DNA of 64,000 nucleotides from Bacteroidota bacterium. Lineage in GTDB: Bacteria; Bacteroidota; Bacteroidia; Bacteroidales; SKPS01. The stretch covers positions 62,001 through 126,000 of the forward strand of contig JAKLII010000006.1 in assembly GCA_022709695.1 (NCBI GenBank), read 5' to 3'. Both the position numbers and the translations under genes were made by a program. Every line of letters begins with the position of its first letter. The first letter of the stretch is position 1. Positions 6,438 to 29,915 of the stretch are shown here, one piece after another. Under the pieces are notes generated by a model. The model ran no database searches, was not told the origin of the DNA, and was given only the letters and a program-made list of their open reading frames with translations.

Positions 6438-6441
6438 CCAC

Positions 6442-6457
6442 TGTTAATTTTTTAACA
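6442..6457. promoter_or_regulatory. Rex-type operator (cluster I)
   Basis: TGTTAATTTTTTAACA has perfectly complementary halves TGTTAA and TTAACA around four T's. It matches the known clostridial form of the Rex operator (TTGTTAA-N4-TTAACAA) in all core positions. It begins 4 bp after the -7 element, so a bound repressor would cover the transcription start. A rex gene lies in the same locus (26033-26665). Confidence 0.7.
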
Positions 6458-6500
6458 ATAACAGGAAATCATTATCTAAATCAACCTATTAGGAGGAAAA

Positions 6501-10022: not shown

Positions 10023-10055
10023 ATCTTTAGAAATCAATAAGATATAATAATATTC

Positions 10056-10088
10056 TGTTATTTTATTAACAATGTTATTATTTTAACA
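10056..10088. promoter_or_regulatory. Tandem Rex-type operators (cluster II)
   Basis: Two 16-bp sites lie side by side: TGTTATTTTATTAACA (10056-10071) and TGTTATTATTTTAACA (10073-10088). Each has the form TGTTAT-N4-TTAACA, close to the Rex consensus, and their centres are 17 bp apart. They end 7 bp before the -33 TTG of the cluster II promoter, so they lie upstream of the core promoter rather than over it. Confidence 0.65.
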
Positions 10089-10095
10089 ATTTTTC

Positions 10096-10148: not shown

Positions 10149-10574
10149 ATGATTCATAAACCAGATAAAGAACAGGCTATGACAAAAATCAATTCACCGG
10201 AAGATCTCCTCAGGATGAAGGAGGAATTTGCTGGCAGGCTTAATCCTGTTTACAGTCCGGATGACCTTACGGCACCGGTACGGATCAGGGTAGCCATGGC
10301 CACATGTGGCATTGCTTCAGGGGCCCGTGAGGTAATGGACTACCTGACCGAAGAACTTGAAAAGCGGAGTATACAGGCCACCGTAACCCGTGTGGGCTGC
10401 ATGGGGTATTGCTATGCAGAACCCACCATTGAGGTTACCTTACCGGGCAAAGAGCCGGTAGTGTTTGGCGAAGTGGATATCCGAAAAGCCGATCAGATCA
10501 TCGAGAAATTCATCAGGCTTGGTGAACCGGTGGATGGAATCATACCACTGAATTATGAATCCATTGACAAATAA
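10149..10574 (+). CDS. HndB-like thioredoxin-fold [2Fe-2S] protein (cluster II)
   Basis: This 141-residue protein matches the stand-alone form of the ferredoxin domain found at the N-terminus of many HydB/HndC flavin subunits, as in HndB of NADP-reducing hydrogenases. Visible ligand positions are C53 in TCGIASGA and C84/C88 in GCMGYCYAEP; a second cysteine in the first motif is absent, as is usual for this subgroup. It probably adds an electron-transfer branch to the NuoF-like partner encoded 17 bp downstream, which lacks this domain. The ATG at 10149 is preceded by GAGGAAA. A later ATG at 10179 (MTKINSPED) is possible. It is the first gene of the four-gene operon 10149-14363. Confidence 0.85.
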   Translation: MIHKPDKEQAMTKINSPEDLLRMKEEFAGRLNPVYSPDDLTAPVRIRVAMATCGIASGAREVMDYLTEELEKRSIQATVTRVGCMGYCYAEPTIEVTLPGKEPVVFGEVDIRKADQIIEKFIRLGEPVDGIIPLNYESIDK

Positions 10575-12088: not shown

Positions 12089-13858
12089 ATGGAAATGTTG
12101 AAAGTAACCATAGATAACAAAACCGTTGAAGTGGCTCCGGGAACCTCCATTCTGGATGCAGCAGCCAAAGTGGGTATTCAGATACCTACCCTTTGCTACC
12201 TGAACCTTCACGACCTGAATATTGAAAACAAACCAGCCGGCTGCCGTATTTGTGTAGTAGAGGTGGAAGGGCGCAGGAATCTGGCCCCTGCCTGTGCCAC
12301 TGATTGTGCCGACGGGATGAAAATCAACACCCACTCCATCAGGGTGCTGAATACCCGCAAAACGGTGATGGAACTGATTTTATCAGACCATCCGTTCGAT
12401 TGTCTGGTGTGTGCCAAATCGGGCAAGTGCGACCTGCAGAAAATGGCTCAGGACCTCGGCATCCGGGAAATCCGGTACCAGGGCGAACAAAGTCATTACC
12501 GTGAGGACACCTCGCCTGCCATCATCCGCGACGTGGACAAGTGCATCATGTGCCGCAGGTGTGAGATGATGTGCAACGAGGTGCAGACGGTAGGCGTTCT
12601 CTCCGGCGTCAACCGTGGCTTTGAAGCCGTGGTAGCTCCTGCCTTTGAGATGAACCTCGACCACTCAGAATGCACCTATTGCGGCCAGTGCGTGGCAGTA
12701 TGCCCCACGGCAGCACTTACCGAGGTGGACCATACCTACAAGGTGATTGAAGCACTGGCAGATCCCACAAAGGTAGTGGTAGTGCAAACGGCCCCGGCCG
12801 TCAGGGCTGCTTTGGGTGAAGAATTCGGACTGGAGCCAGGTACTTTGGTGACCGGAAAGATGGTGGCTGCACTGCGCCAGCTCGGTTTCAACTATGTGTT
12901 TGACACCGACTTCGCTGCTGACCTCACCATCATGGAAGAGGGTACCGAACTGCTTACCAGACTGAACAAATACCTGGCAGGCGATACGAATGCAAACCTG
13001 CCGATCCTTACTTCATGCTGCCCCGGCTGGGTGAACTTCTTCGAGCACCATTTCCCCGAACTGAAGGATATCCCCTCCACAGCCCGTTCTCCCCAGCAGA
13101 TGTTCGGCCCCATCGCCAAGAACTACTTCGCCGATAAAATCGGTATCAAAAGGGAGGATATGATCGTGGTTTCCATCATGCCCTGCCTGGCAAAGAAATA
13201 TGAATGCTCACGCGAGGAATTCAAAGTAAACGGCGACCCCGATGTGAATTACTCTGTTTCTACCCGCGAACTGGCCAATCTCATCAAACTGGCCAACATC
13301 GACTTCCACAACCTTGATGAAGATGATTTCGACCAGCCGCTTGGTGAATCTACCGGAGCAGGTGTAATTTTCGGCACCACCGGTGGTGTGATCGAAGCAG
13401 CTGTCCGTACCGCCTATGAAGTGCACACCGGAAAAACCCTGGAAAAAGTGGACTTTGAACAGCTTCGCGGGATGGAAGGGGTGAGGAGTGCCAGTGTGGA
13501 TTTCAACGGGCTGGAGCTGAAAATCGGTATCGCTCACGGACTGGGCAATGCCCGCAAACTGCTCGAGGAAATCAAGGCCGGTACCAGCCAGTACCACGCC
13601 ATCGAAATCATGGCCTGCCCCGGCGGATGCATCGGGGGTGGCGGACAGCCGCTGCACCACGGCGACTCCTCAATCCTGAAAGCACGTGCCCAGGCGCTCT
13701 ACCGCGAAGATGCAGGCAAGGCAATCCGGAAATCGCACGAAAATCCATTCATTAAAGAGCTGTACGAGAAATTCCTGGGTAAACCCAACAGCCATAAAGC
13801 ACATGAATTGCTGCATACCCACTATTTCGACAAGAGCAACCAGATCACCATTGAATAA
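12089..13858 (+). CDS. [FeFe]-hydrogenase catalytic subunit HydA/HndD, cluster II (canonical active site)
   Basis: This 589-residue catalytic subunit has the same domain order as the cluster I enzyme. A [2Fe-2S] fold (CYLNL...AGCRICVVEVEG) is followed by the His/Cys [4Fe-4S] motif HPFDCLVCAKSGKC, two [4Fe-4S] clusters (CIMCRRCEMMC, CTYCGQC) and the H-cluster domain. All three H-cluster motifs are canonical: TSCCPGW with C310/C311, MPCLAKKYE (M364, C366, K369) and EIMACPGGCIGGGG (C510, C514). The proton-path DLTIMEEGTE is intact. Of the three catalytic-type subunits in this window it is the only one with a fully standard pocket. The C-terminal tail KAHELLHTHY resembles KSHELLHTHY of cluster I, indicating common ancestry. 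Confidence 0.95.
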   Translation: MEMLKVTIDNKTVEVAPGTSILDAAAKVGIQIPTLCYLNLHDLNIENKPAGCRICVVEVEGRRNLAPACATDCADGMKINTHSIRVLNTRKTVMELILSDHPFDCLVCAKSGKCDLQKMAQDLGIREIRYQGEQSHYREDTSPAIIRDVDKCIMCRRCEMMCNEVQTVGVLSGVNRGFEAVVAPAFEMNLDHSECTYCGQCVAVCPTAALTEVDHTYKVIEALADPTKVVVVQTAPAVRAALGEEFGLEPGTLVTGKMVAALRQLGFNYVFDTDFAADLTIMEEGTELLTRLNKYLAGDTNANLPILTSCCPGWVNFFEHHFPELKDIPSTARSPQQMFGPIAKNYFADKIGIKREDMIVVSIMPCLAKKYECSREEFKVNGDPDVNYSVSTRELANLIKLANIDFHNLDEDDFDQPLGESTGAGVIFGTTGGVIEAAVRTAYEVHTGKTLEKVDFEQLRGMEGVRSASVDFNGLELKIGIAHGLGNARKLLEEIKAGTSQYHAIEIMACPGGCIGGGGQPLHHGDSSILKARAQALYREDAGKAIRKSHENPFIKELYEKFLGKPNSHKAHELLHTHYFDKSNQITIE

Positions 13859-14935: not shown

Positions 14936-16120
14936 TCAGATATACCTGATAATCACCCGCTTCAGGTACTCTTTTTCGAGGATGGAGGCGATCCGTTTGA
15001 CGACGGTGCGCCGGATTTCGAGCTCCACCGGAAGGTTGGGATCCTGATGTGCCACATTTACGCGGGTGCCGATGATGAAGGTGATTTCGTCACTGTCAAG
15101 CAGCATCCTGATTACCTGATCTGCAGGCCCTTTCCCCTTGCGTACCTTATTGAGGTATCCCGGAAGCAGTGAGGCCACCTTTCCAAGGGTGAGGATGCCT
15201 TCGGTATAGAGGTCAATCCCCTCCATATAGCTCACCGGAGGGAGGTCGTCATCTGTAAATTCAAAACCATCCTGAATTTCCACCCCCAGTTCGCGGGCAA
15301 TGATGTCGCCGGTGGTGGCTCCTGATACAATTTTTCTTCCATGGAAATTCTTCACCGCTTCCCCAAGCTCATGATCTTTTGACTCTTCATAAGGGGGGCC
15401 GGTGCAATAGAGCAGCTTGCGGGGTTCCCGGAAATAGACCGATACGCAGCTGATATCGTCGTGCGGCATGTATTCATCGTGCTTGTTGGCAGCATTCACC
15501 ACCCGGATGGCAAGCTTGTCGGCATCGATATCGGGCTCACTCTGAACCGTTTTCAGCACAAAATCACGCAGTCCCTCTTCGCCCCACCCAAACGGATAGG
15601 CATCCGTACCCATCCCCGATTGGGTCACGCCATCGGAGCAAAAAATAATCCGGTCGCCCTTTTCAGGTGTAATGTTGCACGTGCGCAGTTTTTTTCCTGC
15701 ATGCGGACCATCGATCAGCTCTATTTCATCCCATTCAGGTTCCAGGATCTCCACGCTGCGGAGGTACACCATGCCTGGGTTATCAAACTCAAGCACTTTG
15801 ATGAACCCCTGCTTTTCGATGTCAATGATGGTGAAGGTTGCATAACTGGTATGGCGTATCGAACACACCGGCAGTGTATTCATGATGATCTCGGCAATGC
15901 GGCGGCTCTCCTTGTGTTCGGCAGTGAAATTGAGTGCCATGGTGGCTGTGAGGGTAGCCAGCACGTTGGCTTTTACGCCATGCCCCATACCATCAGAGAG
16001 CACAACGATTACACGGTTCTCCTCCAGCTGGTGGCGCGAGAAGAACACATCCCCGCAGATGCGTGCATCGTGATGCTGCTTCTGGCTGTATTTGACCTCT
16101 ATGTAGAAATCTTCGCTCAT
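14936..16120 (-). CDS. SpoIIE/PP2C-type serine phosphatase linked to sensory hydrogenase
   Basis: This 394-residue protein has a SpoIIE-like PP2C phosphatase domain in roughly the first 230 residues. The metal-binding motif is VVLSDGMGHGVKA, with later IIFCSDGVTQSG and HDDISCVSVYF segments. Such phosphatases usually dephosphorylate serine on anti-sigma-factor antagonists. The remaining 160 or so residues (from about HGRKIVSGATTGDIIAREL) form a domain I do not recognise. The gene overlaps the upstream sensory hydrogenase gene by 4 bp (ATGA), so the two are almost certainly co-translated. This matches the known phosphatase-linked sensory [FeFe]-hydrogenase type (group C3 in HydDB terms). No STAS-domain substrate or anti-sigma gene is visible nearby, so its target is unknown. 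Confidence 0.88.
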   Translation of the reverse strand: MSEDFYIEVKYSQKQHHDARICGDVFFSRHQLEENRVIVVLSDGMGHGVKANVLATLTATMALNFTAEHKESRRIAEIIMNTLPVCSIRHTSYATFTIIDIEKQGFIKVLEFDNPGMVYLRSVEILEPEWDEIELIDGPHAGKKLRTCNITPEKGDRIIFCSDGVTQSGMGTDAYPFGWGEEGLRDFVLKTVQSEPDIDADKLAIRVVNAANKHDEYMPHDDISCVSVYFREPRKLLYCTGPPYEESKDHELGEAVKNFHGRKIVSGATTGDIIARELGVEIQDGFEFTDDDLPPVSYMEGIDLYTEGILTLGKVASLLPGYLNKVRKGKGPADQVIRMLLDSDEITFIIGTRVNVAHQDPNLPVELEIRRTVVKRIASILEKEYLKRVIIRYI

Positions 16121-18009
16121 TTTGAACCTTTCTCGGCCGCTTTAAAGGATTCGATCAGGGAGTTGAGAACCTTCTCTGTATTAGCAGCACCCTCCCCGAG
16201 GAGGAAGCCGATCTGCTGCACCATCCTGAGATTTTCGTCAATGGCTTCAGACAAGCGGTTCACCACCTCCTCGCCCCGTACCTCAGGCGACTGCAGGTCG
16301 CGTATCACGGCGCCCACAATCCGGTGTTTCCGGATGCTGAAAACCGAAAGGTTGTAGATCCTTTCCCCGTAATGCACATCCTTGTTCACCACACTCTCGT
16401 CATGATCGAGCACATAGGTGAAATAGCTGTAAAAATTATAGGGCACCAGGGTCTTCAGGTCGGCACCTTCGAGTCCCGGTATGATCTCATTGATTTCAGC
16501 CACCTCATCACCGAGGAGCCTGACAAAGGTTTGATTCGCCTGGATGATTTTCAGGTTTTCGTTCACCAGCAAAATACCCGACGGGATTTTCTGGAGCATG
16601 GAACGTGTGATCTCCATGGCTTCCAGGGCGGTTTCCTTCTCCTTCCGGGCCTCTTTTTCAGAATCTTCCAGTGCCTGGCGGGTCTGGGCCAGCTTTTCGT
16701 TGGTGATGCGGAGTGAACGGATGTATTCCTGCTGATTCCGGAGGTTATGGCTGTGGCACATCTCGGTTTTGGCAAGCCCTTTGGCCACGGCCACAGCAAA
16801 CTCCCTGCACGACGGGTAGCCACAGGCAGAACAGCCTTTCATTCCCACCTCATCACCCTTGCCGATGATGCGCATGATTTCGGAGATCTTTTCCTCCGAG
16901 GGTTCTTCCATCCGCTGATCGTCGTTGCGGAAAACTGCCTCAGTATTGAGCCTGGCATATTCGGTGAACTGATCCTGCCAGGCCTGCTTGTCGAAAATAC
17001 TGTCGCGCTTCCTGGCATAATTGATTACCAATGACCTGCGTAAAAACTTATTACGGTTGGGAGAGGTACCGGGACCCATCAGGCAGCCTTCGCAATAAAA
17101 CAGGTTGAAATGCTTCTGCAAATCATCAATGTGGGTGCTGAACTCACCGATCGCAGTGGCAATGTTGCCTGACCCTTCGGAAGTAATGATGCTTCCGTCA
17201 AGCAGGTCTTCGCTCAGGCGGGCAGCCTGGATGATCCCTTCGCTCACCGGGTAAAGTGCCCCGGCAGCGCCAAGCGGCTGGTCGAAATCGCTGAATTCCA
17301 GCTTACTCTCTTCTATCTGCTTCTCTGCAAACATCTCCCGAAGCTCCCTGAAAGTAATCAGCTCATCCACTTTCCCTGAATCCTCATAACGGAGCGCTTC
17401 GCGCTTGGCTGCTATGCACGGTGAAATGGCCACCACCTTCAGTTCCTGCCCGTACTTCTCCCTGACCACGCAGGCAGAGACGGTCATGGCAGTGGTGATC
17501 GGGGCAAGATTGCCGATCAGTTCGGGGTTGTATTTTTCGATATGCATCACCACCGCAGGACAATTGCTGAACATGTAGTATTTTCCCCTGAAGTCCCCGA
17601 CCAGGTGCCGGTAGTTAGCGGCAATAATGTCCACCCCGAAGGATACCTCGGTCACATAGTCAAAACCAAGTTCACGGATCATTTTGACGAACTTCCGGTA
17701 ATCGGTAATGTCATCAAACTCGCCCGAGATGGAAGGGTCAACGATGGCAGCCACTTTGTGTTCAGAGTCGAGCAGCTGATACACCTGCTGCACAGAGCTC
17801 CGGAATGAAATGGCCTCTTCAGGGCAAATATCCAGACAGTTGCCGCATCCGATGCAACGCTGGTCATCGATTTCAGCAAAAGGCTGGTTGTGTTTTACCT
17901 GAATGGCTTTCACAGGGCAGATGCGAATGCAGGTATAGCACAGGGTACACTTGCGGCTGTCGATTGAAAGCAGGGGAAGATTCATTCCCGTAGGCACCGT
18001 GCTGGTCAT
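16117..18009 (-). CDS. Sensory [FeFe]-hydrogenase with Fes and PAS domains (HydS, phosphatase-linked)
   Basis: This 630-residue putative H2 sensor starts with two [4Fe-4S] clusters (C21-C31 and C52-C62 regions), followed by an H-cluster domain with FSNCPAV (N149, C150), ISPCIAAK (S196, C198, K202) and CEGCLMGPG (C306, C309). A Fes-type [4Fe-4S] motif (C393, C396, C401, C418), a coiled coil (about 425-470) and a PAS domain (about 475-590) complete it. Asparagine replaces the proton-transfer cysteine and serine the usual methionine of MPC. These changes are typical of sensory group C hydrogenases, which turn over slowly. The signal probably passes through PAS to the phosphatase encoded next (4-bp overlap). 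It lies in a three-gene operon. Confidence 0.9.
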   Translation of the reverse strand: MTSTVPTGMNLPLLSIDSRKCTLCYTCIRICPVKAIQVKHNQPFAEIDDQRCIGCGNCLDICPEEAISFRSSVQQVYQLLDSEHKVAAIVDPSISGEFDDITDYRKFVKMIRELGFDYVTEVSFGVDIIAANYRHLVGDFRGKYYMFSNCPAVVMHIEKYNPELIGNLAPITTAMTVSACVVREKYGQELKVVAISPCIAAKREALRYEDSGKVDELITFRELREMFAEKQIEESKLEFSDFDQPLGAAGALYPVSEGIIQAARLSEDLLDGSIITSEGSGNIATAIGEFSTHIDDLQKHFNLFYCEGCLMGPGTSPNRNKFLRRSLVINYARKRDSIFDKQAWQDQFTEYARLNTEAVFRNDDQRMEEPSEEKISEIMRIIGKGDEVGMKGCSACGYPSCREFAVAVAKGLAKTEMCHSHNLRNQQEYIRSLRITNEKLAQTRQALEDSEKEARKEKETALEAMEITRSMLQKIPSGILLVNENLKIIQANQTFVRLLGDEVAEINEIIPGLEGADLKTLVPYNFYSYFTYVLDHDESVVNKDVHYGERIYNLSVFSIRKHRIVGAVIRDLQSPEVRGEEVVNRLSEAIDENLRMVQQIGFLLGEGAANTEKVLNSLIESFKAAEKGSK

Positions 18010-18254
18010 AATGGTTTTCTGTTGGTAATTTCGTCCAGTAAACTGATCAGTTTCTCCTCCGTCAGTTTTTCATAGATCACCCCGTTGATTTCAATGATCG
18101 GTCCCTGATGGCAGTTCCCGAAACAGTGCCCACCCCGGAAATCAACCCTCGATTCCAGGCTGCGCGATTGCAGATACTCCTTCACGATTTTTACCATACT
18201 CTTGTTTCCCCTTGAGAAACAAGAACTTCCCAAACAAATTCTAATCTGTATCAA
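18006..18254 (-). CDS. Small [2Fe-2S] thioredoxin-like ferredoxin
   Basis: This 82-residue protein is a NuoE C-domain-like [2Fe-2S] ferredoxin with C-x4-C in CLGSSCFSRG and C-x3-C in GGHCFGNCHQGP. The only available start is a TTG at 18254, because an in-frame stop lies five codons upstream; the family sequence begins at once (IQIRICLGSSC). It overlaps the sensory hydrogenase gene by 4 bp (ATGA). It is the first gene of the operon 18254-14936 and may pass electrons to or from the sensor. A -7 element lies 30 bp upstream, and two Rex-type palindromes lie in the shared divergent promoter region. Confidence 0.8.
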   Translation of the reverse strand: MIQIRICLGSSCFSRGNKSMVKIVKEYLQSRSLESRVDFRGGHCFGNCHQGPIIEINGVIYEKLTEEKLISLLDEITNRKPL

Positions 18255-18318: not shown

Positions 18319-18351
18319 TGTTATTTTAATAACATTGTTATTTTTGTAACA
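18319..18351. promoter_or_regulatory. Tandem Rex-type operators in divergent promoter region
   Basis: TGTTATTTTAATAACA (18319-18334) is a palindrome with perfectly matching arms. TGTTATTTTTGTAACA (18336-18351) differs by one position between its arms. The centres are 17 bp apart, exactly as at cluster II. The second site overlaps the -33 TTG of the plus-strand promoter, and the pair occupies the -33 region of the minus-strand promoter, so one repressor could control both operons. Confidence 0.7.
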
Positions 18352-18367
18352 AAAAGAATTATTTTTG
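18335..18367 (+). promoter_or_regulatory. Promoter of hydrogenase cluster III
   Basis: TTG at 18335-18337 and TATTTTTG at 18360-18367 are 22 bp apart, within the Bacteroidota range. The first gene starts at 18394. Confidence 0.6.
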
Positions 18368-18393: not shown

Positions 18394-18852
18394 ATGAACG
18401 ACATCTTGAAGCAATTCAGGCCAGACCACCGGGAGGATCTGATTCCCTGCATGCAGGCTGTACAGGACAGGGAGGGATATATCAGCGACGACTCGATGGC
18501 AGCCATTGGGGCCCATTTTGGCATTCCGGCCATTAAGGTGTATGGTCTGGCAACTTTTTACGACTATTTTACTTTTGCGCCGGTTTCGGGCGATGTGGTG
18601 AGGATCTGCAACGGGACTTCCTGTCATATGATGGGTGCCGGAAAGTTGATTTCGGAGGCAGAGAAAATAAAACAGACGGGTGCGGGCAAGGGAAGAAGCC
18701 GTTTTACACTGAAAATTTGTGAATGTCAGGGTGCCTGCAGTGCCGGACCTGTGATGGATGTCAACGGAAAAAGCTACATCAGGGTAAAACCGGAGGAGGT
18801 AAGAAGCATTACAGAGAAGAGCCTGGGCCGTGAGAAAGGGGGTGAAGGATGA
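18394..18852 (+). CDS. NuoE/HydC-type [2Fe-2S] subunit (cluster III)
   Basis: This 152-residue NuoE-like subunit starts at the ATG at 18394 (MNDILKQFRPDHRED). The frame is open further upstream, but that part lies across the promoter and encodes no family sequence. [2Fe-2S] ligands are C-x4-C in ICNGTSCHMMG and C-x3-C in CQGACSAGP. The docking motif IKVYGLATFYDYF is present. Its stop overlaps the next start (ATGA), showing tight coupling with the NuoF-like gene. It opens the operon that runs through the HydA-like gene, sensor kinase, phosphorelay and rex. Confidence 0.9.
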   Translation: MNDILKQFRPDHREDLIPCMQAVQDREGYISDDSMAAIGAHFGIPAIKVYGLATFYDYFTFAPVSGDVVRICNGTSCHMMGAGKLISEAEKIKQTGAGKGRSRFTLKICECQGACSAGPVMDVNGKSYIRVKPEEVRSITEKSLGREKGGEG

Positions 18853-20789
18853 GTTTACAGGCCATGAACAGGGAAACAGCCCGGCGGATTATCGCCCTGC
18901 CACCTTCGAAAATCACCAGGGAAGAGCAGGATCTGTTACTGCTGCTCAGAAGAGACCGCTGTACGATTCCGGTTATACTGGTTTCGGAAAGCCGGCCGGC
19001 AAGGGTTAGCGGATCGAATGCAACCTACTCTGCCATTGCAGATTATATCTCAGAGAATAATCTTAGTGTTGAACTGGGTCGTTGCAGTGGCAAGGGATTT
19101 CAGCAAAACGAACCCTTTGTGGATGTACAGTTACCGGGAAAATCGAGGGTAACATTCGGACCTGTATCCCCTGAAATTGTACCGCTGATCCTGGATGGTA
19201 TGATCAATAAGGCTATTCCGATGGAATACGCCCTGTGGCAATACAGGAACCCGATGCATGAACCGTGGGACGGGGTACCTTTTTTTGACGAAATTCCTTA
19301 TTTTTCAGGACAGGTACGCAAGCTTACACGCAACTTCGGTTTAAGCGATCCCGCCTCCGTTGCCGAGTACATTGCCCGCGACGGATATAAAGCTTTTGTA
19401 AAGGCGATCTCCAATTATACGGCAGCTGACATTACCGAGCTCGTGGAACAGAGTGGGCTGCGGGGCAGAGGTGGCGCCGGGTATCCCACCGCACAGAAAT
19501 GGCAGGTTGCAAGAAATACCCTCTCGGATCAGAAATATCTGATCTGTAATGCCGATGAAAGTGATCCGGGAGCATTTACCGACAAAGCGCTGCTGGAGCG
19601 TGAACCCCATAAGGTGATCGAAGGAGTCGCCATCGCAGCATATGCCATTGGAGCCTCCATGGTGTTCATCTACGTTAATGCATCCGACAGCTATTCAACC
19701 GATTGCATCGAACATGCTCTTTCGGAAGCTGCTGCCCTTGGTCTGACAGGCGAAAATATTTTCGACAGTGGTTTCAACCTGAAGGTTCAGCTGGTACGCA
19801 GTGCAGGGGCGTATATCTGCGGCGAGGAGACAGCCCTGATCAACAACCTTCAGGGAAAACGGGCCATTCCCCGCCAGAAGCCCCCCTACCCTTCTGAGAA
19901 AGGATTATTTGGCAAGCCTACAGTGGTAAATAATGTCGAAACCCTGTTCAATCTGCCGGATATTCTGAATTATGGTCCCCAGTGGTATCGAAATACCGGC
20001 ACACCTGATAGTCCCGGCACCAAGATTCTTTCCCTTACGGGCAAACTGAAGTACCAGGGGTTAGTGGAGGTGCCTTTCGGGATTACCCTAAACGATCTCG
20101 TAACAAAAATCGGGGGCGGGATCCGCAACGGAAAGCAATTCAAAGCCTTGCAGATTGGCGGGCCGGCTGGTCGCTGCATTGGTCATGAAGGGCTTCAACT
20201 GAAGCTCGATTACAAAACCTTCGCGGAAGCAGGTATTTTTCTCGGATCGGGTGGCGTCGTGGTGCTGGATGAGGAGAATTGCATGGTGGATGTAGCCCGT
20301 TATTTTCTCCGGTTCATCAGCCGCGAGAGTTGTGGTAAATGCATCCCCTGCAGGGAGGGTTCCCGCAGGATGCTCGACATCCTCAATGCCATCAGTCATC
20401 GTCCTGAACAGGGCGCTTCACACGAACCTCTGGAACGGTTTAAGGGTGTTATGACCCTTGAAAGCCTGGCAGAAGTTATCAAGGACACCTCCCTGTGCGG
20501 CCTTGGCAAAACAGCACCGGACACGGTTTTAAGTACGCTGCGCCTTTTCAGGGAGGAATATGAGGAGCACATCTTTGAACGAAAATGCAGGGCTGGCGTT
20601 TGCACCGACCTGCAAACCTACTACATTGATATGGAAGCCTGTACAGGATGCACAGCCTGTGCAAAAAAATGCCCGGTCAACGCCATCATCGGCACTCCGA
20701 GACAACCATTTTTCATTATCGAACAGAAATGTACCGGTTGTGGTATCTGTATGGAAACCTGTAAGTTCAGCGCCGTAAAAACACGATAA
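18849..20789 (+). CDS. NuoF/HydB-type flavin subunit with degenerate N-terminal ferredoxin domain (cluster III)
   Basis: This 646-residue protein has the full HydB/HndC architecture: an N-terminal thioredoxin-like domain (about 35-125), an FMN/NADH domain, the N3-type cluster (ESCGKCIPCREG) and a C-terminal 2x[4Fe-4S] domain (CTGCTACAKKC and CTGCGICMETC). In the N-terminal domain the cluster cysteines are mostly lost. The first motif is ILVSESRPARV and the second C79-S-G-K-G, so a [2Fe-2S] cluster is unlikely there. The flavin site is mostly kept (GLRGRGGAGYPTAQKW), but CNADESDPGAF has Ser for the usual Gly, and ALINNLQGKRA differs from the ALIxSxEGxRG of both sister subunits. It overlaps the upstream gene by 4 bp and lies 3 bp from the HydA-like gene. 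Confidence 0.92.
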   Translation: MSLQAMNRETARRIIALPPSKITREEQDLLLLLRRDRCTIPVILVSESRPARVSGSNATYSAIADYISENNLSVELGRCSGKGFQQNEPFVDVQLPGKSRVTFGPVSPEIVPLILDGMINKAIPMEYALWQYRNPMHEPWDGVPFFDEIPYFSGQVRKLTRNFGLSDPASVAEYIARDGYKAFVKAISNYTAADITELVEQSGLRGRGGAGYPTAQKWQVARNTLSDQKYLICNADESDPGAFTDKALLEREPHKVIEGVAIAAYAIGASMVFIYVNASDSYSTDCIEHALSEAAALGLTGENIFDSGFNLKVQLVRSAGAYICGEETALINNLQGKRAIPRQKPPYPSEKGLFGKPTVVNNVETLFNLPDILNYGPQWYRNTGTPDSPGTKILSLTGKLKYQGLVEVPFGITLNDLVTKIGGGIRNGKQFKALQIGGPAGRCIGHEGLQLKLDYKTFAEAGIFLGSGGVVVLDEENCMVDVARYFLRFISRESCGKCIPCREGSRRMLDILNAISHRPEQGASHEPLERFKGVMTLESLAEVIKDTSLCGLGKTAPDTVLSTLRLFREEYEEHIFERKCRAGVCTDLQTYYIDMEACTGCTACAKKCPVNAIIGTPRQPFFIIEQKCTGCGICMETCKFSAVKTR

Positions 20790-20792
20790 ACT

Positions 20793-22484
20793 ATGAATTT
20801 TTTCATAACCGTTAACAACAGGGAGATTGAAGCCGTTAAGGGTGAAACCATCCTTCAGGCGTTGAAACGTGCAGGTATCAGCATTCCTACCCTTTGCAAC
20901 ATGGAAGGGTTTACCCCAACAGGGGCGTGCCGTCTCTGCATGGTTGAGGTGAAAGGGCGCGAAGGGCTGGTTCCTTCATGTTCCCAGCCTGTCGAAGAAT
21001 GGATGGAGGTGAAGACCCACACCCCCAGGGTGATCAAAGCACGCAGGATGATTGTTGAATTGCTGCTTGCAAGCCATCCTGACGACTGCCTGTATTGTGA
21101 ACGCAACTGCCACTGTGAGCTGCAAAACCTTGCTTTTGAACTGAATGTCAGAGAACGGAAACAAAGCTCCCGAAGACCAGCCATGGTAAAGGACCTCAGC
21201 AGTCCGGCCATCACCAGGGATCCCTCCAAATGTATCCTCTGCGGACGCTGTGTAAGGATATGTGAAGAGGTGATGGGTTGCTCCTCGCTGGAATTCTCCG
21301 GAAAAGGGGATGCTTCACGGATCGACACACTGGGCGGGCGCGGGCTGAATGCCACCAGTTGTATCGCCTGCGGCCAATGCGTTATGGTGTGCCCAACAGG
21401 TGCCCTCTATGAAAAGAAAAAACTGGCCGAACTCCAGATCGCCCTCGGAAATCCCGGACTGCATCCCGTTGCCGTGGTGGATCCCGTGGTAAGCCTCTCA
21501 CTTGCGGATGTGTATGGCAACCGTAATCTCAGGCAGTCGGCAAGGCAACTCAATAATCTGCTGAAAAGGTGCGGTTTCAGGGAGGTGTATGATTATGCTG
21601 CACTGCAGGATCTTTATGTGCGGAAAACCGCTGAAGAGCTGACCCGCGCTGAAGGCAGCACAATTTACTCTTCAAACTGTCCGGCATGGATCAAATACGC
21701 TGAACAATACCTGCCGGAACTATTGCCCTGTATTTCAAAACTGAAGAGCCCGTCGCAACTGGCCGGCACGCTTCTGAAGAAACTTCTGCCGGAAAAAGAT
21801 GGCACAAAGCCGTTTGTAGTGAGCTTCAGCCCCTGTACGGCACGAAAGTACGAATCACGCCGCAGGGAATTCAACCCTGTGGGAGAACCGGAGATTGATC
21901 TGGTAATCACCGCAAGGGCTCTGGAACAGTATGTGGTTCTCAACGGAATGGATCCTGCCACAGCCGAAGCTGAAGAATTCAACAAGCCCTTCCAGACCTC
22001 TTCGATGTACGGAGAGCTGGGAGGTGTAAGCGGAGGGACCATGGAGGCGGTTGCTGCTGAAACCTATTTCAGGCTAACCGGAGGCAAAGACCTTCCTTCA
22101 GGCAGACTGAAAAAAGTAAAACCGGGGAAAATCAGGGAGCTGGTTTTTGATCATGCGGGAGAAACCTGGCGGTTCGCTTCGGTGAGCGGTATGGCTGAAG
22201 CAGCCGGATTTATTGAAGAATTATCGGGTAAACCGGGTTACTACCGGTACATTGAAGTAATGGCTTGCCCCAACGGCTGTATCAACGGGGGAGGGTTGCC
22301 GATTCTGAATGATGACAATATCTTGAAAAACAGGCAAAAGCAACTAACGGAGCTTGCAGAAAAGAATGCACTTGCATGTTCCAACCGTAACAGGACCATC
22401 GACGAGCTTCTGTCGGAACTGGCAAAAATGGATGGTGGTGAACAGCTGCTTTATACTGCATACGAACCAGGAAAAACTGTATAA
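20793..22484 (+). CDS. HydA-like [FeFe]-hydrogenase subunit with non-canonical H-cluster pocket (cluster III)
   Basis: This 563-residue protein has the domain order of a catalytic HydA: [2Fe-2S] fold, His/Cys [4Fe-4S] (HPDDCLYCERNCHC), two [4Fe-4S] clusters (CILCGRCVRIC, CIACGQC) and an H-domain. The four cluster cysteines are kept (C296, C348, C492, C496) and L3 is MACPNGCINGGG. Around them the pocket has changed. L1 is SSNCPAW with N295 for the proton-transfer cysteine, L2 is SPCTARKYE with S346 for Met and R351 for the conserved Lys, and the MEEG of the proton path is replaced by RKTA. The first two changes also occur in the neighbouring HydS at 16117. It may be a slow, sensory or otherwise specialised enzyme fed by the NuoF-like partner. 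Confidence 0.9.
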   Translation: MNFFITVNNREIEAVKGETILQALKRAGISIPTLCNMEGFTPTGACRLCMVEVKGREGLVPSCSQPVEEWMEVKTHTPRVIKARRMIVELLLASHPDDCLYCERNCHCELQNLAFELNVRERKQSSRRPAMVKDLSSPAITRDPSKCILCGRCVRICEEVMGCSSLEFSGKGDASRIDTLGGRGLNATSCIACGQCVMVCPTGALYEKKKLAELQIALGNPGLHPVAVVDPVVSLSLADVYGNRNLRQSARQLNNLLKRCGFREVYDYAALQDLYVRKTAEELTRAEGSTIYSSNCPAWIKYAEQYLPELLPCISKLKSPSQLAGTLLKKLLPEKDGTKPFVVSFSPCTARKYESRRREFNPVGEPEIDLVITARALEQYVVLNGMDPATAEAEEFNKPFQTSSMYGELGGVSGGTMEAVAAETYFRLTGGKDLPSGRLKKVKPGKIRELVFDHAGETWRFASVSGMAEAAGFIEELSGKPGYYRYIEVMACPNGCINGGGLPILNDDNILKNRQKQLTELAEKNALACSNRNRTIDELLSELAKMDGGEQLLYTAYEPGKTV

Positions 22485-22495
22485 AACCTAAAAAG

Positions 22496-24487
22496 ATGGC
22501 CCCTAAGAAGCCCATAACCCAACTGGTATTCACCGCGAAAGATCTGTGCAGGGTTTGCTATTCATGCGTTCGGTCGTGCCCTGCCAAGGCCATACGGATT
22601 TACGCCGGGCAGGCTGAGGTGATCAACGAACGCTGTATCGGATGCGGCAACTGCACCCGCGTATGCAGCCAGGGCGCCAAGACCTTTCTTAACTCTGTGA
22701 AGGAAGTTGAAGCCCTTTTACAGGAAGAAGGGATTAAAACCGCCATCATTGCGCCGAGTTTTGCTGCAGAGTTCACTGATTTTGAGGATCATGAAAAGCT
22801 GGTAGGAATGATTCGCGCCCTGGGATTTGACCATGTGATGGAGGTTGCCTTTGGTGCCGATCTGGTGACTGCGGCCTATGCAAACCTTTTCGGACATGAA
22901 ACCGATTACAGTTACATCGCTGCCAACTGCCCTGCCATTGTGCACTATATCAGGCAATACCATCCTGAACTGGTAGACCATATTGCCAGGATTGCATCGC
23001 CGGCAGTGGTTACCGCAAGGGTTGCACGGAAGATCACAGGGGAAGATACACGGATCGTATTTATCGGGCCGTGCATTGCCAAAAAAACCGAATCGGCCGA
23101 GCTTGATGAGGTGATCACCTTTGCAGAACTCAGGCAGATGTTTGCTGAACATCAGCTGAACCAGGAAGATATCGCTACCTCCCGGTTCGACCCTCCGTTA
23201 GGCGGCAGAGGTGCCATTTTTGCGATCAGCCGAGGGATGATCCAGAGCGGGGATCTGCCCGATGATGCCATTCAGGGGAATATTGTGGTGGCAGAAGGGA
23301 AGAACAACTATCCGGAAGCACTGGCGGAATTTGAAAAAGGGCTGCTGCACGGGCAGCACCTCGAGCTGCTTGCCTGTGAAGGGTGCATCATGGGCCCCGG
23401 CAACACCGTTACCGGAAAACCTTACTCCCGGAGGAACAGCATCCGAAAATACCTCCACCATAAGATGGCTGCATTTGATGAGGCAACATGGCAGCGTGCC
23501 ATGCAGGATTTTTCCGGTATTGATCTTTCGCAGAGTTATTCTCCCAATGACCAGCGTTTACCATTGCCCTCACCCGAAGAAGTGGACAGGGTGCTTGGAA
23601 GGCTTGGGAAGCAGGACCCGAAAGACCATCTGAATTGCGGCGCGTGTGGTTATGAAACCTGCCTTGCCCATGCCATTGCCATCATAGAAGGGCTGGCAGA
23701 AGGAGAAATGTGCTTACCCTATACCATCGAACAGCTTCATAAATCGATCACTGAACTCGATATCTCCAATTCCAAGCTGGCTTCGGCCCAACAGGCGCTG
23801 AAACAAAGTGAGAAACTGGCATCCATGGGACAGCTTTCAGCCGGGATTGCCCATGAACTCAACAATCCACTGGGTGTGGTGATGATGTACAGCAATATCC
23901 TGCTGGATGAATGCGCGCCCGATGACCCGGTGAGAGCAGACCTGCAATTGATTGTTGAACAGGCAGAAAGGTGTAAAAGAATTGTGGGGGGACTGTTGAA
24001 TTTCGCCCGTAAAAATCAGGTTAACTGGGATGACGTGGATGTCAGACAACTGATCGACAGCTCGTTGAATGCAGTGGTAGTGCCCCCTGGTGTGAGTATT
24101 GAATTCAATCCGCCAGACAGGAAAATATCTTTCCAGGTAGATGCGGAACAACTTACCCAGGTACTCAGCAACCTGTACAAGAATGCCTTCGAAGCCATGA
24201 ACGGCAGCGGGACCATCAGGATAACATTGTCGGAGATAGACGAGTCCGTGCACATTTCGGTTCAGGATACCGGTACCGGAATATCCAGGGAGAACATGGA
24301 GAAGATCTTCGAGCCCTTTTTTACCACCAAGGAGATCGGAAAAGGAACCGGTCTGGGGCTGGCTACTGCCTACGGTATTATCAAGATGCATAAAGGAAAG
24401 ATCACTGTGGATTCCAATGATAATCCGGCGAAAGGACCTACCGGCACAACCTTCCATATTGAAATTCCCAAAACAAGAACCCTTTAA
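22496..24487 (+). CDS. Sensory [FeFe]-hydrogenase fused to histidine kinase
   Basis: This 663-residue single-chain H2-sensor kinase begins with two [4Fe-4S] clusters (C18-C28 and C47-C57 regions), followed by an H-domain with AANCPAI (N144, C145), IGPCIAKK (G191, C193, K196) and CEGCIMGPG (C294, C297). A Fes-type [4Fe-4S] motif follows (C381, C384, C389, C406). The C-terminal kinase has phosphoacceptor H453 in [11 protein letters not shown] and ATPase motifs [16 protein letters not shown] and [13 protein letters not shown]. This is the histidine-kinase-linked sensory type (group C1 in HydDB terms). No membrane segment is seen, so it is probably cytoplasmic. It lies 11 bp after the HydA-like gene and 11 bp before a receiver protein, its likely partner. 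Confidence 0.93.
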
Positions 24488-24498
24488 ATATCAATGAT

Positions 24499-24894
24499 AT
24501 GAACAGGAAAGAAATAAAAATTCTGATAGCCGATGATGATCCAGATTATCTCTTTCAGATGAAAATTATGCTGCAAAATGCAGGCTTTCAGGTAATTGCC
24601 GCTGACAGCCAGGCACAGGCAGAAGAGATCATAGCCTCGGTGAAACCCGATCTGGCGATCCTGGATCTGATGATGGAGAAAGATGACAGTGGTTTTATCC
24701 TTTCTTATAAAATCAAGAAACTGTATCCCAGGGTACCGGTAATCCTTGCCACGGCAGTATCTCAGGAAACCGGTATTTCCTTCGGATTTGATACCGAAGA
24801 GGACCGTTCCTGGATTAAAGCCGACCTGTATCTTGAAAAAGGGATAAGGCAGGATCAACTGCTGATGGAAATCGAAAAACTTCTTAAGAAATGA
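24499..24894 (+). CDS. Single-domain response regulator (CheY-like)
   Basis: This 131-residue protein consists of a receiver domain only. The acidic pocket is IADDDPDY, the phosphoacceptor aspartate lies in LAILDLMM, and the conserved Thr and Lys are in LATAV and YLEKGI. It has no output domain, so it must act by protein contact or pass phosphate on. It lies between the sensor kinase (22496) and the receiver-kinase hybrid (24891), with its stop overlapping the next start (ATGA). That position fits an intermediate in a H2-responsive phosphorelay. The loop before the lysine (GFDTEEDRSWIK) is longer than usual. Confidence 0.9.
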   Translation: MNRKEIKILIADDDPDYLFQMKIMLQNAGFQVIAADSQAQAEEIIASVKPDLAILDLMMEKDDSGFILSYKIKKLYPRVPVILATAVSQETGISFGFDTEEDRSWIKADLYLEKGIRQDQLLMEIEKLLKK

Positions 24895-26027
24895 ACATCC
24901 TGAAAATTCTTGTGGTGGATGATGAACCCGGCATCCGTTCGGGAGTGAGCCGGATACTGACCCGGTTTACGGTGGATTATCCGTTTATGGATGAGCAGAT
25001 TGGCTTTGAGGTGCTCGAAGCTGATTCCGGAGAGGCCGGGCTCGCGATCATCGAAAGAGAACCTGTTGATGTGGTGCTCCTTGACAACAAACTCCCAGGT
25101 ATCCAGGGAATTGACCTGCTAAAACTGATCAAGGAAAAGCAACCCGACACCCTGGTTACCATGATCACTTCGCACGCATCGCTGGATGTGGCCATCAAAG
25201 CCACCTCGATCGGGGCGCATGATTTCGTACCAAAACCCTTCACTCCGCAGGAGCTGAAATCCTCTATCGAAAACATCACCAAACACCTCTTTCTCAAGAG
25301 GATGACAAGCAAGCTGCAAAAAGAGGGGAAGCAGATCCGCTTTCAGTTTCTTCAGGTATTGTCGCATGAGCTCAAAGCTCCGCTCAATGCCGTTGAAGGG
25401 TACCTGCAGATGATCACAAACCGCCAGTTTGGCAGCAGTATCGAAGACTATCAGGAGATCACACAACGGGCCGCAGAGCGGCTTAAAGGGATGCGGAACC
25501 TGATTATGGATCTGCTTGACCTCACACGGTTTGAAACCGGAAAAACCCCATCCGTACCCCAGCAGGTGGATATCAGAGCACTGGCCACTGCTGCTGTGGA
25601 CCTGCATAAACCCTATGCCATCCAGAAGGATGTGGATATACATCTCCACACCGATTGTGAGGTGTGCCTGTATGGCGTTCCGGATGAACTGGAGATTATA
25701 TTCAATAATTTGATTTCCAATGCAGTAAAGTACAATAAAAAGGGTGGCAGGGTAGATATTACCATCTGTTGCGACGGAAGGGCTGTGACGATGGAGTTCA
25801 AGGATACGGGGATAGGAATTCCTGAAGATGCCCGGAAAAACCTCTTCACAGAATTCTTTCGCATCAAGACTGCCGAAACCAAAGGGATACAGGGTTCAGG
25901 CCTTGGACTTTCGATTGTGAAAAAAATTGTCGATATTTATAAAGGTTCCATCGAAGTAGAGAGCACACCCGGCGAGGGTTCCACCTTTACCTTAACCTTA
26001 CCGTTGCCTGCAGCGGTCAAAGATTGA
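24891..26027 (+). CDS. Receiver-histidine kinase hybrid
   Basis: This 378-residue protein has an N-terminal receiver (VVDDEPGIR, phosphoacceptor in VVLLDNKLPG, Lys in FVPKPF), a short coiled linker and a histidine kinase. The kinase shows LSHELKAPLNAVEGYL for the phosphoacceptor, NLISNAVKYN, DTGIGIPEDA and GSGLGLSIVKKIV. It has no membrane segment. The receiver-first order suggests that phosphorylation of the receiver controls kinase output. With the sensor kinase and the single receiver it forms a three-protein relay in one operon. No DNA-binding regulator is present besides Rex, which starts 5 bp downstream, so the relay's final target is unknown. Confidence 0.9.
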   Translation: MNILKILVVDDEPGIRSGVSRILTRFTVDYPFMDEQIGFEVLEADSGEAGLAIIEREPVDVVLLDNKLPGIQGIDLLKLIKEKQPDTLVTMITSHASLDVAIKATSIGAHDFVPKPFTPQELKSSIENITKHLFLKRMTSKLQKEGKQIRFQFLQVLSHELKAPLNAVEGYLQMITNRQFGSSIEDYQEITQRAAERLKGMRNLIMDLLDLTRFETGKTPSVPQQVDIRALATAAVDLHKPYAIQKDVDIHLHTDCEVCLYGVPDELEIIFNNLISNAVKYNKKGGRVDITICCDGRAVTMEFKDTGIGIPEDARKNLFTEFFRIKTAETKGIQGSGLGLSIVKKIVDIYKGSIEVESTPGEGSTFTLTLPLPAAVKD

Positions 26028-26032
26028 TACGC

Positions 26033-26665
26033 ATGAACAGTGTTAAGAATCTTCCGGAGAAAACCATTGAGCGTCTGAGCCAGTACCGCAGGGTGTTACT
26101 GGATTGCCTTCGCCAGGGCAAATACAACATATATTCCCATGAGCTTGCAAGTTTGCTGCATATTAACCCTGTGCAGGTAAGGCGTGATATCATGCTTATC
26201 GGGCACAATGGCACCCTCAGAAAGGGGTATGATGTAAAAAGGCTGAGCGACATGATCGGCACCATTATCGACAGTAAGGAAGGGCAGAAAGTAGCAGTGG
26301 TAGGGGTTGGCAATCTGGGCCGTGCCATCATGACCTATTTTCAGGGAAAGCGGACGAAGCTGGTGATTGCGGCTGCATTCGACACCGATCCCGCCAAGGT
26401 AAACCGCGTAATTGCCGGGATTCGGTGCTACGCTGCCTCAGAGATGGAGGAAGTAATCCGTAAAGAGGGTATTACCATCGGGGTGATTACCGTGCCCCCG
26501 GACAAAGCGGCTGAGAGCGCCGAAAAACTGGTGATGGCGGGCATACGGGGTATCCTGAATTATACTCCGGTGGCACTCAACGTTGAGCCTCATGCCTATC
26601 TTGAAGAATATGATATGGTTACATCGCTGGAAAAAGTGGCATTTTTTGTTAAAAACCGAAGCTGA
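26033..26665 (+). CDS. rex: Redox-sensing transcriptional repressor Rex
   Basis: This 210-residue Rex protein binds operator DNA when NADH/NAD+ is low and leaves it when NADH rises. The N-terminal winged helix has the RRVLLDCLRQGK, ELASLLHINPVQVRRDI and YDVKRL segments. The Rossmann domain has VAVVGVGNLGRAI, followed by AAFDTDPAKV and GITIGVITVP. The ATG at 26033 (MNSVKNLPEK) is preferred over the TTG at 26024. The gene sits at the end of the hydrogenase/sensor operon, whose promoter carries Rex-type palindromes, so autoregulation is likely. Similar palindromes precede clusters I and II. The stop overlaps the next start by one base (TGATG). Confidence 0.95.
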   Translation: MNSVKNLPEKTIERLSQYRRVLLDCLRQGKYNIYSHELASLLHINPVQVRRDIMLIGHNGTLRKGYDVKRLSDMIGTIIDSKEGQKVAVVGVGNLGRAIMTYFQGKRTKLVIAAAFDTDPAKVNRVIAGIRCYAASEMEEVIRKEGITIGVITVPPDKAAESAEKLVMAGIRGILNYTPVALNVEPHAYLEEYDMVTSLEKVAFFVKNRS

Positions 26666-28428: not shown

Positions 28429-28487
28429 TACGCAAACAAGAAGGGTTGCGGATTGTTATTTCATCAACCCATTCAATTTTTAAGATC

Positions 28488-29915
28488 ATGATTTTTAATC
28501 CTGAACAATGTGCCATCCCCGACGAACGGATGAAGCCGTTTATCGATCCTGAAGAGATCTGGAGGCACCTGCAAGAAAACAAGGCAACCCCGGAACGGGT
28601 GCGCGAAATCATTGCAAAGGCCATCGGTAAAAATCGCCTTACGCTGGCTGAGACCGCTGTGCTGATCAATGCGGATGACCCTGCACTGATCGAGGAGATC
28701 AAACAAGGTGCACGGACGTTAAAAGAGAAGGTCTACGGAAACCGAATTGTGCTGTTTGCACCCCTCTACATCGGCAATAAATGCACCAACAACTGCACCT
28801 ACTGCGGTTTCAGGGCCAGCAACAAAGATGCTAAGCGGATGACCCTTAGTGACGAGGAGATCGTGAAAGAGGTGGAAGCGCTGGAGGACAACGGTCAGAA
28901 ACGACTGATCCTGGTGTATGGGGAGCATCCCCATTATAGCCCTGAATACATTGCCCATACCGTAAACCTGGTGTACAGCATAAAGAGGGGGCCCGGCGAG
29001 ATCAGAAGGGTAAATATCAACGCGGCACCGCTGGACATCGAAGGATTCCGCACCGTGAAGGAGGCCGGGATCGGCACCTACCAGGTGTTCCAGGAGACCT
29101 ACCATCCCGAAGCCTATGCCTGGTACCATCTGGGAGGAAAGAAAAAGGACTATGAATTTCGCCTCACTTCCCTCGACCGTGCACAGGAAGCCGGCATCGA
29201 CGATGTGGGCATCGGTGCATTGTTTGGACTGTACGACTGGCGGTTTGAGGTGCTGGGGCTTGTGCGTCATGCCAACCATTTTGAGGCATGTTACGGCGTT
29301 GGTCCGCATACCATTTCGTTCCCGCGCATCCAGGCGGCAAGTATGCTGAATATGGATGGCAGGTACCTGGTAAATGATGATGAATTTGTGCGGCTGATCG
29401 CCATCCTGCGACTGGCAGTCCCTTATACCGGATTGATTCTGACGGCCCGCGAAACCGCCCGGGTTCGCAAGGAGGTGATGCGTTTCGGTGTATCTCAGAT
29501 CGACGGAGGCACCAAACTGGAGCTGGGAAGTTATTCCGACAGTAAAAACCAGGATCAGGACCTCAACAAGGAGCAGTTCAAAGTGAACGACGATCGTTCG
29601 CTGAATGAGATCATCGACGAGCTCATCGGGGAAAAGTACCTCCCTTCCTTCTGCACGGCATGTTACCGCCTGAACCGAACCGGTGAACACTTTATGGAGT
29701 TCTCGGTTCCCGGATTCATCAAACGGTTCTGTACCCCCAACGCCATTCTGACGCTTGCAGAATATCTGGAGGATTATGCCCCGGAAGAGACGGCAAAGAA
29801 AGGTTGGGAAGCCATTGAGGAGAATCTGCAGGAGCTCGGAAATTCGGCACAGGTGCAGGATATCCGGAACCGGCTTGAGAAAATTAAACAAGGCACCAGA
29901 GACCTTTATTATTAA
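28488..29915 (+). CDS. hydG: [FeFe]-hydrogenase H-cluster maturase HydG
   Basis: This 475-residue radical-SAM tyrosine lyase makes the CO and CN- ligands of the H-cluster by cleaving tyrosine. The radical-SAM cluster motif is CTNNCTYCGF (CX3CX2C), and the second, auxiliary cluster is CTACYRLNRTGEHFM...RFC (CX2CX22C) near the C-terminus. Both are expected for HydG and absent from its relative ThiH. The ATG at 28488 (MIFNPEQCA) is chosen over upstream in-frame codons because it starts family-like sequence and gives the usual length. HydE and HydF, the other two maturases, are not in the window. The gene follows three hydrogenase clusters and precedes two TM1266-like regulators. Confidence 0.96.
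   Translation: MIFNPEQCAIPDERMKPFIDPEEIWRHLQENKATPERVREIIAKAIGKNRLTLAETAVLINADDPALIEEIKQGARTLKEKVYGNRIVLFAPLYIGNKCTNNCTYCGFRASNKDAKRMTLSDEEIVKEVEALEDNGQKRLILVYGEHPHYSPEYIAHTVNLVYSIKRGPGEIRRVNINAAPLDIEGFRTVKEAGIGTYQVFQETYHPEAYAWYHLGGKKKDYEFRLTSLDRAQEAGIDDVGIGALFGLYDWRFEVLGLVRHANHFEACYGVGPHTISFPRIQAASMLNMDGRYLVNDDEFVRLIAILRLAVPYTGLILTARETARVRKEVMRFGVSQIDGGTKLELGSYSDSKNQDQDLNKEQFKVNDDRSLNEIIDELIGEKYLPSFCTACYRLNRTGEHFMEFSVPGFIKRFCTPNAILTLAEYLEDYAPEETAKKGWEAIEENLQELGNSAQVQDIRNRLEKIKQGTRDLYY

Follow-up and report, generated by a model that had tools for sequence, protein, structure and literature searches.

Among the closest described systems is BfuTABC of Hydrogenedentota, in which a group A3 HydABC hydrogenase is accompanied by a group C3 hydrogenase-kinase, the product of the 'T' gene (PMC11406978). 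A second point of comparison is provided by the sensory hydrogenases, HydS. Slow HydS of group D have two hallmarks, the change of M353 to Ser or Thr and the loss of C299 (PMC8163306; CpI numbering is used for these positions throughout), and TamHydS and TmHydS, which have no C299, are slow yet active (PMC8163306, PMC10055695, PMC10407848). The proton path has also been altered in the laboratory. In CpI, E279A/Q and C299A/S variants have less than 1% activity, while C299D has 30–80%, and proton-path variants accumulate hydride under H2 (PMC6226526). Saturation mutagenesis of CaHydA at Cys298 gave efficient turnover with Asp only, and Asn at this position had no detectable activity in the screen (PMC3485046).

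No report of a natural group A HydA without C299 was found in the open-access literature. The protein described here is encoded in a stretch of 64,000 nucleotides (the window) from the genome of a Bacteroidales bacterium.

The gene cluster

The gene for the window HydA (20793–22484, forward strand) has an ATG start and is a stop-free ORF of 563 residues. It lies in a tight run of genes, in the order NuoE, NuoF, HydA, HydS/histidine kinase, response regulator, receiver/kinase, Rex and RibF, with gaps of only −4 to +11 bp. The NuoE/HydC-like [2Fe-2S] subunit (18394–18852, +; PF01257, 6.9e-34) has a likely ATG start, the ORF caller having placed a TTG start at 18202. It is followed by the NuoF/HydB-like FMN/NADH subunit (18849–20789, +), in which the core and C-terminal Fe-S cysteines are present and the N-terminal 2Fe-2S cysteines are lost. 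A HydS-type hydrogenase fused to a HisKA/HATPase histidine kinase (22496–24487, +; PF02906, PF04060, PF00512, PF02518) is encoded in the same direction, 11 bp downstream of HydA, and carries NCPA together with GPC. The run continues with a single-domain response regulator (24499–24894, +; PF00072), a receiver and histidine kinase hybrid (24891–26027, +; PF00072, PF00512, PF02518) and the redox repressor Rex (26024–26665, +; 203.6 bits against the NCBIfam Rex model, cut-off 126).

Diverging from this run are a HydS with a PAS domain (16117–18009, −), which has NCPA, SPC and CEGC motifs, and the SpoIIE-type PP2C phosphatase paired with it (14936–16120, −; PF07228). An additional ORF of 63 residues (18006–18197, −) overlaps the start of the PAS-HydS gene; its HCFGNCHQGP motif looks like that in the latter half of thioredoxin-type [2Fe-2S] ferredoxins. 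In all three of the proteins at 20793, 22496 and 16117 the L1 cysteine is preceded by Asn (NCPA); in kinase-type HydS elsewhere it is mostly preceded by Asp (SSDCPA).

Immediately upstream of the cluster are two HydB/HydA operons of catalytic type. HydA1 (8181–9965, +) scores 869.7 bits and HydA2 (12089–13858, +; TSCCPGW, MPCLAK) 906.8 bits against the NCBIfam A6 model, whose cut-off is 765. HydA1 has Cys at 299 and Ser at C300, an H-cluster ligand position (Cys-Ser-Pro), as do 24 of 51 relatives; Ser at this position is reported to be common in BfuA of Hydrogenedentota (PMC11406978). The maturase HydG is also in the window (28446–29915, +; TIGR03955, 503 bits), and HydE and HydF are found outside it in the same genome. 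The same cluster is found in many Bacteroidales; Planctomycetota, Acidobacteriota and others have it too, but with no divergent part.

Rex-like palindromes TTGTKAAWNNNTTMACAA (at most two mismatches) are found upstream of all three hydrogenase operons of the window, at 6441–6458, 10055–10089 and 18335–18352. The last of these, TTGTTATTTTTGTAACAA, lies 41 bp before the NuoE ATG and is a predicted operator. There are 10 strand matches in the window against 1.1 expected, a number reached by none of 100 shuffles. A fifth place, 10553–10570, falls within a gene.

The H-cluster pocket of the window HydA

The window HydA has the Pfam domains Fer2_4, NADH-G_4Fe-4S_3, Fer4 and Fe_hyd_lg_C. Alignment to CpI shows that it is a full M3-type protein, with all 16 accessory Fe-S ligands, so that the sets for a 2Fe-2S, a His/3Cys 4Fe-4S and two 4Fe-4S clusters are complete, and with all four H-cluster cysteines (C296, C348, C492 and C496). 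Neither a PAS domain nor the PF04060 domain, with its C-terminal Cx2Cx4Cx16C cluster, is present; the PF04060 cluster occurs in both neighbouring HydS.

The residues around the H-cluster are altered. In L1, IYSSNCPAW (residues 291–299; 21663–21689, +), Asn295 takes the place of C299, next to the retained ligand C296. The segment corresponding to TIMEEATEL of CpI is YVRKTAEEL (21615–21641, +), where E279 has become Thr and E282 is kept. In L2, VVSFSPCTAR (residues 342–351; 21816–21845, +), M353 is replaced by Ser and K358 by Arg, on either side of the ligand C348, and the P2 motif MPCxAKK is therefore absent, the sequence being SPCTARK. L3, EVMACPNGCINGGGLP (residues 488–503; 22254–22301, +), keeps M497 and the ligands C492 and C496. 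Further changes are A230 to Asp, F417 to Gly, Q325 to Ser and T297 to Ser, while E282, S319, P231 and M497 are retained. The proton path C299-E279-S319-E282 is thus incomplete, with Asn at 299 and Thr at 279 and only S319 and E282 present.

The protein scores below the cut-offs of both the NCBIfam A6 model (472 bits, cut-off 765) and the group A model (265 bits, cut-off 405.95), which both other HydAs of the same genome pass. An AlphaFold2 model built on the clade alignment has a mean pLDDT of 88, and its predicted fold superimposes on HydA1 of T. kivui (8a6t) with a TM score of 0.92. On this model the window HydA has a normal HydA fold.

Much of this had been claimed in an earlier note on this DNA. 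The alignment, the Pfam domains and the adjoining NuoE and NuoF genes confirm its description of a catalytic-type modular HydA, linked to NuoE/NuoF and with four H-cluster cysteines. The motifs that it reported are all present: SSNCPAW in L1 (Asn for Cys), SPCTAR in L2 (Ser for Met, Arg for Lys), and the first two of these changes again in the HydS at 16117 (SNCPA, SPC). The sensor kinase and Rex that it placed in the operon were both found there, together with response regulators. It had also stated that the acid pair of the MEEG motif is replaced by RKTA. The RKTA sequence is indeed present and E279 is Thr, but the outer glutamate E282 is kept, so that one of the two acids is lost.

Only one other genome of the genus is available, and it has a HydA of 60% identity with SSNCPAW and TPCTAR, the same pocket. 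A sequence or frame artefact was rejected on the basis of the clean ORF, the same pocket in this sister genome, and the pattern across the clade described below.

Two clades in the Bacteroidales

The set of 231 HydAs came from named genomes together with 393 genomes of Bacteroidales, and a maximum-likelihood tree of 171 rows was calculated after removal of the pocket columns. The Bacteroidales sequences fall into two groups, B1 (48 rows, SH-aLRT 98) and its sister clade B2 (72 dereplicated rows, SH-aLRT 92), which includes the window HydA. The latter is nested in the lineage of NuoE-NuoF-HydA-HydS kinase clusters, that is, it descends from the catalytic trimeric lineage. These two clean clades were not recovered on the tree of the HydS kinase, an independent gene that is weakly resolved.

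A230, E279, E282, C299, M353, K358, F417 and M497 are invariant in B1 (48/48) and in the other relatives (51/51). In B2 the same residues are retained in 9 (A230), 6 (E279), 44 (E282), 36 (C299), 43 (M353), 44 (K358), 19 (F417) and 67 (M497) of 72 sequences, whereas the H-cluster cysteines C300, C355, C499 and C503 are kept in all 72, and the accessory ligands are complete in every sequence listed with an altered C299 or M353. Residue 299 in B2 is Cys in 36, Asp in 10, Ser in 8, Ala in 6, Asn in 4, Arg in 3, His in 2, Phe in 2 and Leu in 1. Substitutions of the type seen in the window are thus absent from the 99 related rows and recurrent within one clade, and their recurrence is more than chance.

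The phylogeny changes how the earlier note is to be read. Its view of the protein as unusual holds for the altered pocket, but the protein is one member of a Bacteroidales clade of 72 sequences, and the idea of a one-genome curiosity was rejected. The pocket is sensory in style, as had been proposed, in that it resembles that of HydS; the resemblance is not one of descent, because the protein groups with the catalytic trimeric group A and the changes arose repeatedly within the clade. No group A relative that is predicted to be active shares the altered residues: such relatives have C299, E279, M353 and K358 throughout. Of the relatives without C299, most have neither M353 nor K358, the exception being those with Asp at 299.

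The two clades differ in their surroundings as well, although these contrasts in neighbours and paralogues represent one evolutionary split and are associations rather than independent replicates. The SpoIIE and PAS-HydS pair is found in 57/72 clusters of B2 and in 0/48 of B1. Other HydA matches of at least 300 bits, mostly two, are present in 53/54 B2 genomes against 7/21 B1 genomes, the remaining 14 of which hold no second strong HydA. A Rex-like palindrome precedes NuoE at 43/67 loci of B2 (shuffles 2.2) and at 4/46 of B1 (shuffles 1.4).

Some variants within B2 are worth adding. Some of its PAS-HydS have lost their own H-cluster cysteines (L1 MSNDP, L2 SPLIA, L3 FYKE-F), unlike the adjoining HydA. 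Three HydAs (L241, L250 and L261) are extreme, with Arg at 299, TNC at L2 (PC to NC) and K358 changed to Ala, but their set of four H-cluster cysteines is complete; beside them no HydS kinase was detected. Eight others (L123, L125, L142, L143, L145, L146, L148 and L191) are natural HydAs with Asp at 299 that retain M353.

Repeated loss and constraint

C299 has changed at least 11–13 times; the full HydA tree requires no fewer than 13 changes, and that of the neighbouring HydS kinase 12. A single origin of the loss was rejected (AU p 1e-4, on a subset of 48 rows with the C299-lost rows forced into one clade).

The residue at 299 is associated with the rest of the pocket. In counts uncorrected for kinship, the share of rows that keep M353 is 33/36 where residue 299 is Cys, 8/10 where it is Asp and 2/26 for all other residues; for K358 it is 33/36, 6/10 and 5/26 respectively. 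Fisher's test for 299 and M353 gives p 8e-12, which ignores kinship and is descriptive only; in a tree-aware comparison the pairs divide 3 to 1, with 7 usable pairs, too few for power. The natural variants at 299 mirror the laboratory mutants: Cys and Asp behave alike, and the other residues accompany the loss of M353 and K358. With E279 missing from 66/72 sequences, nearly all of B2 is expected to turn over slowly, and this prediction applies to the window HydA more than to most. The mutants strongly suggest that the window HydA would turn over H2 much more slowly than a normal enzyme does.

The relaxation in B2 is concentrated in the H-domain, where 44 of 110 columns invariant in B1 fall below 70%, compared with 9 of the 72 such columns in the Fe-S domain at the N-terminus. 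None of 122 constrained columns of the HydS kinase does so, and 113 of these are counted as kept. In NuoE the four cysteine ligands are kept throughout, and in NuoF the N3 and C-terminal cysteines are kept in all of B2, while the N-terminal 2Fe-2S cysteines are lost in about half, including the window, and NADES replaces NADEG in 68/69. Constraint on NuoE and NuoF is likewise lower in B2, and a general relaxation of the complex may therefore apply. Between close pairs of C299-lost sequences dN/dS is 0.029–0.064, from only three pairs, some of them near synonymous saturation. A pseudogene was rejected on the low dN/dS and the retention of ligands.

Interpretation

The repeated loss of the proton path, with all metal ligands kept, suggests that a fast catalyst has become a slow H2 or redox sensor wired to NADH. 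The explanation that we favour, with a probability of about 0.58, is that paralogues relieved a trimeric NADH-linked hydrogenase of its catalytic role, and that it was turned into an H-cluster complex that is slow, probably regulatory, and placed next to an H2-sensing histidine kinase. The ancestor of the window HydA, NuoE and NuoF would have been an active trimeric NADH-linked hydrogenase, which kept its NADH-FMN-Fe-S wire and H-cluster and gave up fast proton transfer. Given that CpI proton-path variants accumulate hydride, the H-cluster may be held in long-lived reduced or hydride states, and its state could be set by H2 and, through NuoF, by NADH/NAD+. The complex would then be a slow redox or H2 reporter, or a modulator, for the adjacent HydS-histidine kinase and response regulators, with a presumed NADH-dependent expression through Rex. 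Of the options in the earlier note, a probably slow and regulatory enzyme is supported, and an H2/NADH sensor may be proposed from the sequence and neighbours of the window complex. We put forward more tentatively, as a possibility of somewhat less than even odds, that de-catalysed HydABC complexes form a new class of sensory hydrogenase, which would combine H2 with NADH/NAD+ poise, tell the ratio to the co-encoded kinase, and have undergone parallel refinement on many occasions in Bacteroidales, once catalysis had passed to other HydAs.

The complex could instead be a slow but real hydrogenase, which slowly interconverts NADH and H2 with protons taking a different route, is tuned to a high H2 affinity or a particular redox poise, and has no part in signalling. 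TamHydS and TmHydS are active without C299, turning over slowly by another proton path (PMC8163306, PMC10055695, PMC10407848), so residual catalysis may remain in the window HydA; moreover the NADH/FMN site and every core Fe-S ligand are retained, M497 and P231 are largely retained in B2, and the Asp-299 subclades, which retain M353 (8/10) and K358 (6/10), may be quite active. We nevertheless consider this reading unlikely, though a serious competitor. B2 genomes already have at least one catalytic HydA; in the absence of Cys or Asp at 299, M353 is lost in 24/26 and K358 in 21/26, which exceeds what a tuned catalyst would need; and no conserved acid replaces 299, where Asn, Ser, Ala, His, Arg, Phe and Leu all occur.

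Much less probable is that HydA serves as an electron conduit, with its Fe-S chain leading electrons from NADH to a partner such as the HydS kinase, or that its H-cluster carries out a new chemistry that does not involve H2. The electron-transfer ligands are the most strictly retained feature of the clade, and the three extreme members with Arg at 299 may hardly turn over H2, but if HydA were a wire alone, its H-cluster cysteines would be expected to vary, which is what is seen in several PAS-HydS of the same clusters, and they are intact in 72/72. Simple decay, in which a redundant module is heading for loss and owes its survival solely to its linkage with the sensor operon, would fit the accelerated evolution of B2 (median root-to-tip distance 1.17 against 0.52) and the loss of the N-terminal 2Fe-2S cysteines of NuoF in about half of it. 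It is the least likely of the rivals, and very improbable, because the Fe-S and H-cluster ligands of HydA are complete in 72 diverged sequences and because of the low dN/dS noted above; the ORFs are also free of stops and frameshifts, the operon is tightly spaced, and the predicted Rex-like operator is retained.

B2 amounts to an experiment repeated by nature, which separates the residues that make an [FeFe]-hydrogenase fast from those required only to hold its cofactor: in some 70 diverged sequences every metal ligand is constant and the proton path drifts. It suggests that sensory hydrogenases could derive from group A, beyond groups C and D. It also points to a module for H2/NADH regulation that anaerobic Bacteroidales, whose hydrogen metabolism is little studied, commonly carry.

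Comparison with known systems

The window complex resembles the trimeric NADH-linked or bifurcating HydABC of groups A3/'A6' (T. kivui, A. woodii, T. maritima, and BfuABC of Hydrogenedentota) in its subunit set, the five accessory clusters of HydA, the fold (TM 0.92 to 8a6t), the C-terminal Fe-S domain of NuoF and its phylogenetic placement. It differs from them in the replacement of C299, E279, M353, K358 and A230 and in A6 and group A scores below the cut-offs, and its NuoF has no N-terminal 2Fe-2S site and has NADES rather than NADEG. Electron-bifurcating HydB are recognised by Ala or Glu at position 232 of TmHydB and Met at 234 (Losey criteria, PMC7311640); by our own mapping of positions, the window sequence NADESDPGAFTDK has Ala at 232 and Thr at 234, and its change of Gly to Ser is as in non-bifurcating NADES motifs.

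With group C (TmHydS, M2f) and group D (TamHydS, M2e) HydS it shares the absence of C299, an altered M353 (a hydroxyl residue in group D), a broken proton path and a proposed role in H2 sensing. Unlike them it is a full M3 protein with NuoE/NuoF, has no PAS domain or Cx2Cx4Cx16C cluster, keeps M497 and has an independent origin from group A. Membership of group C or D was rejected on domain make-up and phylogeny. On the evidence of the sequences the likeness to HydS is convergence, since the protein groups with the catalytic trimeric group A and the pocket changes have many origins inside the clade. The CpI C299D and CaHydA C298D variants have natural counterparts in B2, where Asp-299 homologues (10/72) mostly retain M353; the window HydA differs from these variants in having Asn.

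As in BfuTABC, a HydABC operon adjoins a hydrogenase-histidine kinase. However, the P1 motif of BfuA keeps TSC, with C299 intact, and no de-catalysed HydA was reported there (PMC11406978). A HydABC beside a hydrogenase-kinase is therefore known; what appears new, against the open-access literature searched, is a group A complex that has acquired a sensory-type pocket by convergence.
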